Source of the DNA: a virus
Strand: one strand, 5' to 3'
DNA: 23,141 bases
IMG/VR virus record: IMGVR_UViG_3300037882_001884
Coordinates: 1 to 23,141 of that record
Made by a program: the position numbers and the translations under genes. The notes under the pieces were generated by a model, which saw only the letters and a program-made list of their open reading frames with translations, searched no databases and was not told where the DNA came from. Below are positions 1 to 12,492 of this stretch, piece after piece. Numbering within the stretch: position 1 is the first letter of the stretch; each line of letters begins with the position of its first letter.

Positions 1-875
1 TCCAAACGCGGTTCAAATTTCTGTACATTTTTTTTTTGTTCATTAGGTCGCCCCCTTTGCGCAACTATATAATTATTATCAACACGGCTTCCTTCTTTAG
101 TCGTAATTGTAAAACTTTTATCGTCGGGACTTTTTAGATTAAACTTAAATCCATTGCCCGCGTCCTTACTTTTTTCCGTTGTTTTCAAGTACCCTTTAAG
201 TATTTTATCGGACAAAAAATATTTGTAGTCCACTTCCGGTTCCAGGACGGACTTAAGATTTATTTTTTTATCTTTTGGTTGCGGGATCATACATTCCAAA
301 TAGCCGAACAACCCTTGAGGTTTTATAAATATGTTTGTCCAATATAAGCGGACGCGATTTTGGGCGGATAACAGGGCCGAATTAATTTGTATCGGTTTAA
401 TACCTATTGCGTCGGATAATACTTTTTTCCATTCCTTTGTCATTTGAACATTTTCCAATAAAAATTTAATATTTTGGTTTCGGCGTTTTAATGCAACAAG
501 AATTCGCATATATTCCCAAAATAAATAAGATTGGCCTTCGAACTCGTATTGTTCATTTTTTAATTCCAAATAGCGTTCCAATGTCAATATTTTTTCCTCG
601 CATTTGGTGGACATTCCTTTACGTTTTCCGGCAAAAGAAAACGATTGACACGGCGAACCGCCACATAAAAAATCTATGATTGGCAATTCGTCCGGGTTTA
701 CATCAACGACGCTTCCAAGTTGAATTGTATTTGGGAAATTATGTTGCGTTACCTGTATCGGATATTTTTCAATTTCGGACGCGTGGTATAATGCAACGGG
801 AATTCCCGCTTGTTGCAATGCTAATTGTCCGCAACTCATACCGTCGAATAAACTTAACACGTTAATTGGTTTCAT
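1..875 (-). CDS. C5-cytosine DNA methyltransferase, 3'-truncated by the window edge
   Basis: Methylates C5 of cytosine in DNA. I translated about 291 residues from the ATG at 875 with no stop before base 1, so the gene runs off the left edge. Visible motifs are the AdoMet-binding motif I (LFDGMSCG, about residues 9-16), motif IV with the catalytic Cys in GGSPCQSFSF (Cys about 76), motif VI ENV (about 141-143) and motif VIII QNRVRLYW (about 172-179). The target-recognition region begins after about residue 185; motifs IX and X must lie outside. The start overlaps the end of the upstream Xre-like gene by 14 bases, so the two are translationally close. A run of ten A residues on the coding strand (28-37) is a possible slippage site. 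Probable role: protecting phage DNA from host restriction (inference). The family is certain; the recognition site is unknown. Confidence 0.95.
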   Translation of the reverse strand, partial: MKPINVLSLFDGMSCGQLALQQAGIPVALYHASEIEKYPIQVTQHNFPNTIQLGSVVDVNPDELPIIDFLCGGSPCQSFSFAGKRKGMSTKCEEKILTLERYLELKNEQYEFEGQSYLFWEYMRILVALKRRNQNIKFLLENVQMTKEWKKVLSDAIGIKPIQINSALLSAQNRVRLYWTNIFIKPQGLFGYLECMIPQPKDKKINLKSVLEPEVDYKYFLSDKILKGYLKTTEKSKDAGNGFKFNLKSPDDKSFTITTKEGSRVDNNYIVAQRGRPNEQKKNVQKFEPRL

Positions 876-1095
876 AGTTACAAAGCTCGTTTAAGTTTAT
901 TTTTAGTATGCTGCATACTTCCACCGCCACGTCAATGGTTGGCAATGTTTCGCCAAGTTCCATTCGCTTATAAGTTCGTTCCGAAACGCCAATCGTACCC
1001 GCAAAAACTTTTTGGCTTACTTTAAGCGATTTCCGTTCGGTACTTAATTTTTTTGATATGCTATTCAATAGATGTTGACGTATGATGTTATTCAT
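862..1095 (-). CDS. Small Xre-family helix-turn-helix regulator
   Basis: A 77-residue protein that is little more than one DNA-binding domain. The helix-turn-helix is visible at about residues 26-46 (VSQKVFAGTIGVSERTYKRM), followed by the family's typical GETLPTIDVAVEVCSIL continuation. It sits between the adenine-type methyltransferase (8-base overlap at its start) and the cytosine methyltransferase (14-base overlap at its end). In restriction-modification systems a small Xre protein in this position is often a controller of methyltransferase expression. By analogy it may time expression of the cytosine methyltransferase or repress the cassette, but no operator is evident. An ordinary phage repressor or Cro-like protein is the alternative. 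Confidence 0.8.
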   Translation of the reverse strand: MNNIIRQHLLNSISKKLSTERKSLKVSQKVFAGTIGVSERTYKRMELGETLPTIDVAVEVCSILKINLNELCNYETN

Positions 1096-1768
1096 TGCTG
1101 AAAAAATTTAATTTTTGTTGTTGTTTATATTGGTTGTAACGCTTGCAATGGTTTTTGTAATATTCTTCGTCCGCTTCTATTCCGTCGAATTCCAATTGTA
1201 GTTCGGGTAATTCATAAACGGCTATTCGTGACGAACCCGAACCCAAATGTGTATCGATTATTTTTTCGCCTTTTTTCGCATATCGTTGATAAATCCAAGT
1301 ATAAAGGCCGACGGGTTTTTGCGTTGGGTGGATTCTGATTTCCTTTTGTTTCATATTTTTTTGAATCATTCCGTGCCATTTCCAACGTACAATCCGAACG
1401 GCGGATTTGAACGACGTCCAAGCCAATTCACAATCCGCAAAATCATTATCGCCGTTTTCCTTATCCCAAATAATCCAACAACTGGAATCAAACGGGATTC
1501 GACTTATAAAATGATTTGCCCCGAATATTATTTGGTTTTTAGATACTCGAAATAATTCTTTGAAAAATTCGTCCGAAGGCGGTTTTTTGTCCCAATCTTT
1601 TTTGGTGTAATTGTTGGGACGAACGCCCGTAGCCTTACAACGGGAAGCGGACTTGCCGCCGTGTTCCCCTATTCCATAAGGCGGATCAATAACGGCCAAG
1701 TCGTAATGTTTATCCGGGACGGTTCTTAAAAACTCCAAATTATCCCCGTAAATTGCGCGCGTTATCAT
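1088..1768 (-). CDS. DNA N6-adenine/N4-cytosine methyltransferase (beta-class order)
   Basis: A 226-residue AdoMet-dependent methyltransferase acting on the amino group of adenine or cytosine. The catalytic motif IV is DPPYG (about residues 28-32). HPTQKP (about 147-152) and the AdoMet-binding motif I, IDTHLGSGSSRIA (about 171-183), follow it; this IV-before-I order is the beta-class arrangement. Motif I has HLGSG where FLGSG or FxGxG is common. The short interval between IV and I leaves little room for a large recognition domain. DPPY with this layout is more often adenine-specific, but N4-cytosine cannot be excluded. The start ATG overlaps the upstream stop as TAATG. No restriction nuclease is adjacent, so it looks like an orphan modification enzyme. 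Confidence 0.93.
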   Translation of the reverse strand: MITRAIYGDNLEFLRTVPDKHYDLAVIDPPYGIGEHGGKSASRCKATGVRPNNYTKKDWDKKPPSDEFFKELFRVSKNQIIFGANHFISRIPFDSSCWIIWDKENGDNDFADCELAWTSFKSAVRIVRWKWHGMIQKNMKQKEIRIHPTQKPVGLYTWIYQRYAKKGEKIIDTHLGSGSSRIAVYELPELQLEFDGIEADEEYYKNHCKRYNQYKQQQKLNFFSNE

Positions 1769-1992
1769 TATTGTTTTACAATTGATAGTGAATAAGGAAC
1801 GTCTTCATGCCAATAATGACATTTTGCTTCAAAGGCATTTGAACAAATATTTTCTTTGAAATATTGGGATAAATCGTTTGTTTGTAAAATTGTAACTGAA
1901 ATTTCCGTTTTATTTTTCCACGCTTTGTAATCCGATTCAGTTATGTAATTAAAAATAACGGTCACATTGCTTAATTTATTTTTTGTTGTCAT
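1768..1992 (-). CDS. Small hypothetical protein
   Basis: About 74 residues from the ATG at 1992 (MTTKNKLSNV...), which lies one base after the upstream stop. A TTG at 2001 would add three residues; I prefer the ATG. No family is recognised. The protein is aromatic-rich, with a Cys and His in EAKCHYWHED near the C-terminus and no signal peptide or membrane segment. Its stop overlaps the ATG of the methyltransferase as TAATG, so it belongs to the same transcript driven by the promoter at 2331-2362. Function unknown. Confidence 0.65.
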   Translation of the reverse strand: MTTKNKLSNVTVIFNYITESDYKAWKNKTEISVTILQTNDLSQYFKENICSNAFEAKCHYWHEDVPYSLSIVKQ

Positions 1993-1993
1993 A

Positions 1994-2311
1994 TTATGCA
2001 ATTTTTTTTGTCCATAAAATACCTGTACCGCAACAGTTGTAAACTTCTATTCCAAACATTGTTTCATTTTCAACAAAATTTAATCGGTCGCGACTATCAC
2101 CCACGCACCATACACCACCGTGTCCTATTGCGTCGGCTTTTGATACTATACAAAAATTAGATTCTACCCTTTCGACGCAGTCAGTCATACCGCTGAAGCT
2201 CGATTTTATTTGTAAAAATAATTCGTCAACATTGTTTATAAAACTTTTTAATGTTGACATTGTCAATTTTTTTGTTCTTAGCGTTTCGGCTGTAATTTTA
2301 TTTTTGCTCAT
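1994..2311 (-). CDS. Hypothetical protein, first gene of the second early transcript
   Basis: A 105-residue protein not recognised as a family member. It starts at the ATG at 2311, about 20 bases downstream of a good Bacteroidota-type promoter box. The N-terminal third is charged and helical (MSKNKITAETLRTKK). The C-terminal half contains several Cys and Gly (HGGVWCVGD, YNCCGTGILW) and may be a small alpha/beta fold. There is no membrane segment. As the first gene after a dedicated promoter it may be a host-takeover or regulatory protein, but nothing in the sequence shows this. Confidence 0.7.
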   Translation of the reverse strand: MSKNKITAETLRTKKLTMSTLKSFINNVDELFLQIKSSFSGMTDCVERVESNFCIVSKADAIGHGGVWCVGDSRDRLNFVENETMFGIEVYNCCGTGILWTKKIA

Positions 2312-2315
2312 TTTT

Positions 2316-2362
2316 AATTTATTTACATTGCAAATATACGATTTGTATTTAATGTGCCAAAT
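2316..2362 (-). promoter_or_regulatory. Bacteroidota-type promoter P2
   Basis: Read on the minus strand, TTTG (2362-2359) is followed after 19 bases by TATATTTG (2338-2331). This matches the known Bacteroidota -33 TTTG / -7 TAnnTTTG layout. The leader to the ATG at 2311 is about 20 bases. The 24 bases at 2339-2316 match 23 of 24 bases of the promoter at 12471-12448, including the downstream GTAAATAAATT. It sits in the 66-base gap after the stop at 2378 and would drive the small-protein and methyltransferase genes. Confidence 0.75.
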
Positions 2363-2377
2363 TTGGAACGACTTTTT

Positions 2378-2755
2378 TTACAAAATATTTATATTTTTTC
2401 TTTTTGCGTATTGTTCAAGTCCATTTGCGCCCGCCAATATTGCGCCCGCCCTATCTTTTAGCGATTGGATTTGTTTTTTAATTTCTTCGGGGTCGTCGCT
2501 TAAATAATAACCGGACGACGTCGCAATTAATGGAATCATTCCTTTAACCCGGATAAAATTACAAATTTTACGCAACCTTACTTCAGTAAGTACGACGCCT
2601 GTTTCAGTTGATATTTTATTCATACCCGCGCAAATGTCCCGGGCCTTAATTGGGTTGTTCTTTGTACGGCGTTCAAAACCTTTGAATAAATAAGGTAACA
2701 ATCGACATTCGTCGTCGGTTAATTCTACTGTTATTTCCTCAAATCCTAAAATCAT
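2378..2755 (-). CDS. Winged-helix-like phage protein of the replication region
   Basis: A 125-residue protein that starts with an ATGA overlap on the DUF1064 gene. The central part (about residues 35-85: KARDICAGMNKISTE, then LRKICNFIRVKG and a SGYYLSDDPEEI segment) looks like a winged helix, where the hairpin before YYLSDD would be the wing. A short helical, coiled-coil-prone segment follows (IKKQIQSLKDRAGAI). Proteins of this look occur near replication and nuclease genes in many phages; that is a general impression. Probably DNA-binding; target unknown. Confidence 0.7.
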   Translation of the reverse strand: MILGFEEITVELTDDECRLLPYLFKGFERRTKNNPIKARDICAGMNKISTETGVVLTEVRLRKICNFIRVKGMIPLIATSSGYYLSDDPEEIKKQIQSLKDRAGAILAGANGLEQYAKRKNINIL

Positions 2756-3138
2756 TTTTTATAATTTTTATATGTTTCAAATATTTTTATTCCGTGGGTT
2801 TCAAACATTAATTTTTTACGGATAATGTAATCCGACGTTCGCACCCCTTTGTGATCTTCAACAACAAATAATTTTGTTTTGCAATCAAAATAAACAAAGT
2901 CGGCTGTGTACTTAAGGCCACCGAGTAACGGGAACGAATATTGGGTCACGGGTTCGGTTATTTCCCCCGCCTTATGTAACAACTTTAATTGTCCGTAACG
3001 TTCCGCTTCGGCGGTTGAATGGAAATATTTATCGTCAACCGTTTTTGGCTTGGCGTTATACTTACTTTTTTTCTTTGTCCCGCCCGAAATATATTCTTTG
3101 AATTCGGCGGCAGTCATTTGTTCGGTTTTATTTGACAT
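2752..3138 (-). CDS. DUF1064-family protein, candidate PD-(D/E)xK nuclease
   Basis: A 128-residue protein. After a charged N-terminus it reads KYFHSTAEAERYGQL (about residues 38-52), then YTADFVYFD (about 78-86) and LFVVEDHKGVRTSDY. The E at the start of the core helix, the D of ADF and the E-D-x-K of VEDHKG fit the PD-(D/E)xK nuclease core as it appears in DUF1064. It lies just after DnaB, where phages often carry a junction or structure-specific nuclease, so a role in resolving replication or recombination intermediates is plausible but inferred. The start overlaps the preceding 81-residue gene by 11 bases. Confidence 0.85.
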   Translation of the reverse strand: MSNKTEQMTAAEFKEYISGGTKKKSKYNAKPKTVDDKYFHSTAEAERYGQLKLLHKAGEITEPVTQYSFPLLGGLKYTADFVYFDCKTKLFVVEDHKGVRTSDYIIRKKLMFETHGIKIFETYKNYKK

Positions 3139-3373
3139 CGACTTCGGTTCTTTTTTGTTTTTTGAAATAATTAATTATTGGCATATAGTCGCCGTGGGGT
3201 AAATCTATTTTGATATAATAACAGGTTGCGGATAAATCCCTTCGGATATGGCTTAATGTTACGTTTTGCCCGTCAAATTCGGCAAGTAATCGGATAAACC
3301 TATCCATATATCCAAAAGTTACCTTGGCGGTTAAATTGTGCCTTAAAATCAATTTTATAATTTTTGTTTCCAT
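3128..3373 (-). CDS. Small hypothetical protein after DnaB
   Basis: An 81-residue basic protein starting at the ATG at 3373, three bases after the DnaB stop. No family is recognised. It contains beta-rich segments (TAKVTFGYMDRF, ATCYYIKIDLPHG) and a basic C-terminus (YFKKQKRTEVDVK), which suggests a small nucleic-acid-binding or helicase-accessory fold, but no motif proves it. Its end overlaps the DUF1064 gene by 11 bases. Confidence 0.65.
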   Translation of the reverse strand: METKIIKLILRHNLTAKVTFGYMDRFIRLLAEFDGQNVTLSHIRRDLSATCYYIKIDLPHGDYMPIINYFKKQKRTEVDVK

Positions 3374-12205: not shown

Positions 12206-12439
12206 CTATACGGTTGCGGCCTCCAATTCCACTATTTCGGTTATGTCGTCAACCTTACGTTTTAAGTTTTTAGAAACTGCCAAAACAATATCGTAATTCA
12301 TAAGTTTGTCGCTGTCGCGGCTTAGAATTTGATTGATTGTTCCGACTTGGCAATTATTAAGTTTTGCCATTTCAGCCATTAGGCCGGGATTGTTGCGGAT
12401 TTCTTTTTTTGTTTCCGCTGAAAAGATTCTTTTTTGCAT
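12206..12439 (-). CDS. Small helix-turn-helix-like regulator, first gene of the early block
   Basis: A 77-residue protein starting at the ATG at 12439, just downstream of promoter P1. A helix-turn-helix-like segment is visible at about residues 21-44 (MAEMAKLNNCQVGTINQILS and following), and the rest is helical (NYDIVLAVSKNLKRKVDDI). Its size and position suggest a Cro-like or early-gene regulator, which could act on the twin promoters. It is weakly diagnostic, and no family can be named. Confidence 0.7.
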   Translation of the reverse strand: MQKRIFSAETKKEIRNNPGLMAEMAKLNNCQVGTINQILSRDSDKLMNYDIVLAVSKNLKRKVDDITEIVELEAATV

Positions 12440-12447
12440 TTGATAAA

Positions 12448-12492
12448 AATTTATTTACAATGCAAATATACAAAACATATTTACAAAACAAA
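12448..12492 (-). promoter_or_regulatory. Bacteroidota-type promoter P1 for the early block
   Basis: On the minus strand TTTG (12492-12489), an 18-base spacer and TATATTTG (12470-12463) match the Bacteroidota promoter layout. The 24 bases at 12471-12448 match promoter P2 at 23 of 24 positions. The -33 element falls in the T-tract of the late terminator, so the late block ends and the early block begins within about 100 bases. It drives the small regulator at 12439 and probably the recombination and replication genes that follow. Confidence 0.78.

Follow-up and report, generated by a model that had tools for sequence, protein, structure and literature searches.

Two DNA methyltransferase genes with a small Xre-type gene between them in a probable orphan anti-restriction operon of a phage

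The left end of the window, a whole virus record of 23,141 bases that stops inside its C5 methyltransferase gene, carries an operon of five visible genes on the minus strand, running from 2311 down to 3. This operon is probably an orphan, early modification unit that serves anti-restriction, with enzyme activity, protective role and timing as predicted features. The reading is preferred because of the phage context, the motifs, the gene neighbours, the recurrence of co-located modification genes and a shared promoter element. In the proposed mechanism, promoter P2 (2331–2361) would drive two small genes without known function, an amino-methyltransferase, an Xre-type repressor and a C5 methyltransferase. 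A 24-base element found in both P1 and P2 would cause methylation to start together with replication, the two methyltransferases would modify newly made phage DNA at two types of site, and host restriction enzymes that cut at the marked sites would be blocked. The Xre protein would most likely bind P2, perhaps both promoters, and would damp the operon once enough protein had been made. Phage methyltransferases help to decide whether phage DNA survives under host restriction, and the time at which they are switched on bears on that survival. The features of the locus are as follows.

3–875, minus strand: C5-cytosine DNA methyltransferase, 3′ end cut by the contig edge (PF00145, phrog_116)
862–1095, minus strand: small Xre/HTH_3 DNA-binding protein, 77 aa (PF01381)
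1088–1768, minus strand: beta-class amino-DNA methyltransferase, complete, 226 aa (PF01555, phrog_23224)
1768–2001, minus strand: small protein without known function, 77 aa, second gene of the operon (open reading frame)
1994–2311, minus strand: small protein without known function, 105 aa, first gene of the operon (open reading frame with one phage relative)
2316–2339, minus strand: 24-base element, P2 copy, with an imperfect dyad at 2321–2335 (shared with P1)
2331–2361, minus strand: Bacteroidota-type promoter P2 (TTTG-N19-TATATTTG)
12206–12439, minus strand: small HTH-like protein heading the replication-recombination block, a possible second regulator (weakly seeded profile)
12448–12471, minus strand: 24-base element, P1 copy (shared with P2)
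12463–12492, minus strand: second promoter, P1, heading the replication-recombination genes (strict promoter pattern)

The record is that of a phage: matches to portal, head protease, holin, endolysin, DnaB and RecT occur together in it. Its gene content comprises head, portal and protease genes, lysis genes, an SbcC/RecT/metal-hydrolase/SNF2/DnaB block and the modification genes, which occupy the left end, and all 32 genes in the list that was picked by us from the open reading frames lie on the minus strand. The source is probably a tailed phage, for which a Bacteroidota host is predicted. Three minus-strand reading frames described in an earlier note on this DNA (875–3, 1095–862 and 1768–1088) are present as reported, with the Xre gene overlapping the C5 gene by 14 bases and the amino-methyltransferase gene by 8 bases. 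The three genes do form a cassette, as that note proposed, and the C5 gene is part of it; the unit is larger than was described, with two small genes (2311–1768) ahead of the cassette, and the cut made in the C5 gene by the end of the record is an additional finding. The first of the leading genes (1994–2311) overlaps the second (1768–2001) by 8 bases, and the second overlaps the amino-methyltransferase gene by 1 base. Because 14 of the 31 junctions in the same 32-gene list overlap, by up to 38 bases, the overlaps within the methyltransferase cassette are not special. The first small protein has a relative in Flavobacterium phage 1/32 (45% over residues 6–99); for the second, Pfam, PHROGs, NCBIfam and PADLOC gave no convincing match to a family. 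The idea that these two genes are halves of one gene was rejected, as the relative, F132_20, aligns well with the first alone. The locus is real and its earlier description correct; its parts are ordinary and its gene order is uncommon.

The catalytic motifs are intact in both methyltransferases, for the C5 enzyme within the part that lies inside the record. The C5 enzyme matches PF00145 (E 6e-23) and phrog_116 (E 4e-42). Its reading frame of 291 aa, open at the contig edge, contains PCQS, ENV and QNRVR motifs, and its relatives are longer by roughly 100 residues, which carry the last motifs. The amino-methyltransferase matches PF01555 N6_N4_Mtase (E 1e-11) and phrog_23224 (E 5e-51), and its best match among solved structures is CcrM (E 9e-7). 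A DPPYG motif lies near the N end and a GSG AdoMet motif near the C end, which is the order of the beta class of amino-methyltransferases. In an alignment of seven sequences, DPPYG and HPTxKP are invariant and GSG is present in six. The target of this enzyme is probably N6-adenine. When solved structures are compared, the C5 enzyme scores best against DNMT3A/3B catalytic domains (E about 2e-12) and less well against HhaI (E 8e-10).

Orphan methyltransferases of phages have been shown to protect against restriction enzymes (PMC4190342). The lactococcal 936-type enzymes described there resemble the present pair in being phage-borne, in lacking a cognate nuclease and in including one beta-class enzyme, and protection from host restriction is the role expected in both cases. 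In contrast to the 936-type orphans, two enzymes of different predicted chemistry are encoded here in one operon with a small HTH gene between them.

Consistent with the orphan reading, and as the earlier note had stated, no restriction nuclease is found beside the two methyltransferases on the readable side with Pfam, PHROGs, NCBIfam or PADLOC. Nuclease-like and helicase genes lie farther along the record: a Holliday junction resolvase (phrog_190), an SNF2 helicase and SbcC. Since the record ends inside the C5 gene and the combination of an HTH gene with a methyltransferase resembles restriction-modification systems, the locus might instead be an ordinary system of that kind, with its nuclease past the contig edge and the Xre protein as its controller protein. 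No nuclease is co-transcribed with Xre in the readable part of the operon, which may run past base 1. The neighbours of C5 relatives in viruses bear on this alternative. These neighbours were taken from the first scan (L043–L122, 80 loci including near-duplicates, which gave 79 upstream and 74 downstream neighbours) as the longest same-strand reading frame beside C5, a rule by which small genes can be skipped (at L051 a Mom gene was taken and not the Xre gene). Most of them either belong to phage replication or lack a family assignment, the leading families being DnaB (9), RusA (6) and VRR-NUC (4). No type II nuclease family was found in Pfam among the 74 downstream neighbours (all 19 families) or among the best 25 of 26 families at the 79 upstream neighbours, and PADLOC listed none in the 25 most frequent of 69 and of 96 families, which included methyltransferases, SspD, mad8 and a homing endonuclease. 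ResIII, a helicase domain named after type III enzymes, occurs at two upstream neighbours and one downstream, beside Helicase_C/SNF2 matches, and HNH_3 with NUMOD4, of the homing type, occurs at two upstream neighbours. Many C5 neighbours have no family at all, and nucleases of an unknown kind could hide among them. The absence of a recognizable controller box, described below, also speaks against a restriction-modification system, and we regard that explanation as very improbable.

The relatives of both enzymes are widespread in phages. C5 relatives occur in 469 of 50,697 phage records and amino-methyltransferase relatives in 395 of 50,697, each at E 1e-5, and two scans of IMG/VR for C5 gave at least 591 and at least 592 confirmed stretches. 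In 395 sampled host genomes, all from one phylum (that of the genome of L147), two have a C5 match at E 1e-30, and one of the two is L147's own, the centre genome that had been selected because it has a C5 gene. In these host genomes the C5 subfamily is therefore scarce.

An early role for the operon is suggested by its promoter region. The strict promoter pattern, which includes an upstream TTTG at a set spacing, occurs on the coding (minus) strand at two sites, 2331–2361 and 12463–12492, and these lie in the sole two gaps of more than 50 bp (66 and 101 bp). Mononucleotide shuffles of the coding strand gave a mean of 0.13 strict sites and a maximum of 2 (n = 200). Because the plus strand, to which no genes are assigned, gives four strict matches, the pattern alone is not specific. 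The site at 2331–2361, TTTG-N19-TATATTTG on the minus strand, falls where the earlier note had put a promoter (2316–2362). A −7 box, TAnnTTTG, has been described for flavobacteria (PMC9723704). P1 and P2 share a 24-base element, GTATATTTGCAWTGTAAATAAATT (BLAST E 4.7e-5), which gave no match with up to three mismatches in 100 shuffles, the pattern having been drawn from the two sites themselves. The dyad that they share, ATTTRCAWTGYAAAT, is weak by itself, since 25 of 100 shuffles gave at least two sites with up to two mismatches; the 24-base match is firmer than this dyad alone. Because P2 has this element in common with P1, which heads the replication-recombination genes, methylation is probably part of the early programme. 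The sharing suggests common control of the replication and modification genes, which would probably have the same class of promoter. The 24 shared bases extend 13 bases past the promoter box.

The gene that follows P1 (12206–12439) encodes a small HTH-like protein that may be an early regulator. In 10 of 16 RecT loci a profile relative of this protein is found about 0.6 to 1.7 kb upstream of SbcC; among these ten, L028 and L029 have the same sequence in that stretch and L030 served as a profile seed. Its kinship to HTH proteins comes from an iterated profile seeded by matches of E 0.056 and 0.086, and since later rounds drew in Xre proteins, there is some circularity in the 96% profile match between it and the Xre set. 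BLASTP of this protein against the Xre protein gave no alignment, and a single-sequence fold model has a mean pLDDT of 66.9, a low confidence. The core sequence GTATATTTGCA precedes relatives of the gene in L028/L029 (identical) and L032, or three of the nine loci with upstream bases, and is absent before those in the other six; it may simply be a host promoter sequence. In many of the related phages a small HTH-like protein that diverges fast is encoded upstream of the SbcC-RecT-hydrolase block, as in L025, L027, L028, L030–L033, L035 and L038.

Within the anti-restriction operon, the role of the Xre protein can be read in more than one way; the bystander and dedicated-controller roles weighed below are alternatives inside the anti-restriction reading and do not exclude it. 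The protein, of 77 aa, matches HTH_3 (PF01381, E 1.4e-9). Its best NCBIfam model is NF041951, phage_RstR (E 1e-11), where it scores 44.9 bits, below the curated cut-off of 80. The NCBIfam matches, every one below its cut-off, place it nearer to RstR/HipB-type repressors, and its top phage tblastn matches are also RstR-type (37.7% over residues 13–73). It thus resembles RstR-type phage repressors in these matches and differs from them in its score and its genome context. Thirty phage records match it weakly at E 0.01, no close relative was confirmed in IMG/VR, and none was found in 395 host genomes, a search without a positive control that is uninformative.

The earlier note had likened the position of the Xre gene to that of controller proteins, and this parallel fares poorly. 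The protein does share with type II controller (C) proteins an HTH_3 domain, a length of about 80 residues and a gene beside a methyltransferase gene. In contrast to those systems, no nuclease is in view here, the Xre gene has no promoter of its own (it overlaps the preceding gene, with no gap before it), and no C-box is recognizable. The controller box (C-box) has the form GACT...AGTC; no GACT-N0-20-AGTC box lies within 860–2420 in the exact form searched. The nearer likeness to RstR/HipB-type proteins argues against the parallel as well, as does the rarity of the arrangement among relatives.

That rarity was assessed in 101 distinct viral C5 loci, which were obtained from at least 151 by merging identical 200-base signatures and of which 98 have at least 300 bases upstream. 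All reading frames of fewer than 160 aa were compared with a profile of our own making, by which some HTH proteins may be missed. Three of the 101 loci listed contain a small HTH gene: directly before C5 in L051, the one such case; 387 nt before C5 with a 79-aa reading frame between in L108; and on the opposite strand from C5 in L101. None of the 18 amino-methyltransferase loci contains a small HTH match, and the order N6-Xre-C5 has no second case in these two sets of sampled loci. Modification genes do lie together elsewhere, an N6-family gene being found within 1.5 kb on the same strand in nine of the 101 viral C5 loci listed, at 3 nt in L120.

The closest counterpart is L051 (IMG/VR contig 3300032291_001948), where the order is DnaB, Mom (PF25680, E 1.5e-36), Xre (67 aa), C5 and RusA. 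As in the present operon, a modification gene, a small Xre gene and a C5 gene stand in a row, there with a 1-base overlap and between DnaB and RusA, and the C5 enzyme is 66% identical to the one described here. In contrast, the first gene of the three is Mom there and the amino-methyltransferase here, and the Xre proteins of the two loci show no more than distant similarity. Two other loci, L356 (80%) and L357 (52%), hold relatives of the L051 Xre protein, and in each of them a VRR-NUC gene is nearby (E 7e-5, just below the cut-off, and E 2e-10, respectively). No C5 or Mom match was found in the fetched 5.5 kb of L356 or 7.2 kb of L357, and the sole N6-family match lies in L357, more than 2 kb from the Xre gene. 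A recurring modification-Xre-C5 module, as L051 might imply, is not borne out by these loci. The row of Mom, Xre and C5 in L051 spans 1193–3259.

These observations are what would be expected if the Xre protein were a general regulator of a mosaic early region, brought between the methyltransferases by gene shuffling and exerting no control over them. The tight overlaps, which are the norm in this phage, fit such a bystander too. However, the Xre gene shares an operon with the two enzymes, and dyads of a size used by small repressors occur in the promoter region at 2354–2369 and 2321–2335; the fetched piece of L357 is also part of a 39 kb contig on which a C5 gene may stand elsewhere. A bystander role is possible, and we hold it to be less probable than the operon reading itself. 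In this part of phage genomes, shuffling affects modification genes and small regulators alike, and adjacency alone is no proof of control.

Alternatively, the Xre protein could be a dedicated modification controller, a detached counterpart of the N-terminal HTH of autoregulated C5 enzymes. In M.SsoII and Ecl18kI a small HTH unit is likewise coupled to a C5 enzyme, and PMC3978073 and PMC3874152 describe repression of the enzyme's own promoter by the N-terminal HTH, which in M.SsoII is a region of 71 residues (PMC3978073). In those enzymes the HTH is fused to the C5 N-terminus and the enzyme is paired with a nuclease, whereas the two overlapping reading frames here are separate, which sets the locus apart from the M.SsoII type, and no nuclease is in view. 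An HTH match lies within the C5 reading frame in 14 of 74 host-genome C5 loci, N-terminally where inspected, and a separate Xre gene stands just before C5 both in L051, with its 1-base overlap, and in the host locus L198 (85 nt); in the host locus L169 an Xre gene overlaps the longest C5 reading frame, although where that frame truly starts is uncertain. However, the phage C5 enzyme is only about 25% identical to the fused enzymes, and within its own subfamily in phages a separate Xre gene is rarely paired with C5. A dedicated controller of modification has little support, and we consider it unlikely.

Less likely still is a more elaborate role, in which the Xre protein would control modification alone by binding the 24-base element at both early promoters and so time methylation relative to replication. 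Also quite unlikely is the corollary that the locus is a restriction-free counterpart of the controller-protein circuit with exchangeable modification genes (N6 here, Mom in L051). If the regulator did control only modification, the type of switch known from restriction systems could exist without restriction; among the matches listed in the open-licence literature, none dealt with regulation of orphan phage methyltransferases by an Xre protein. Within the orphan anti-restriction reading, the Xre protein plausibly gives negative feedback on the operon, its target being a predicted one. Above all, the locus offers a clear instance of modification genes brought together in one phage operon, behind a promoter like that of the replication genes.

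Other groupings of modification genes were seen in the viral loci. Among 80 Mom loci (L051 included), two (L051 and L337) have C5 matches and 15 have an N6-family match nearby. In L349 (2847–4118), 6 bases separate an N6-family methyltransferase gene from the Mom gene that directly follows it. Finally, one viral contig (L115, 2935–8171) carries five tandem reading frames with C5 methyltransferase matches, joined by 4-base overlaps.
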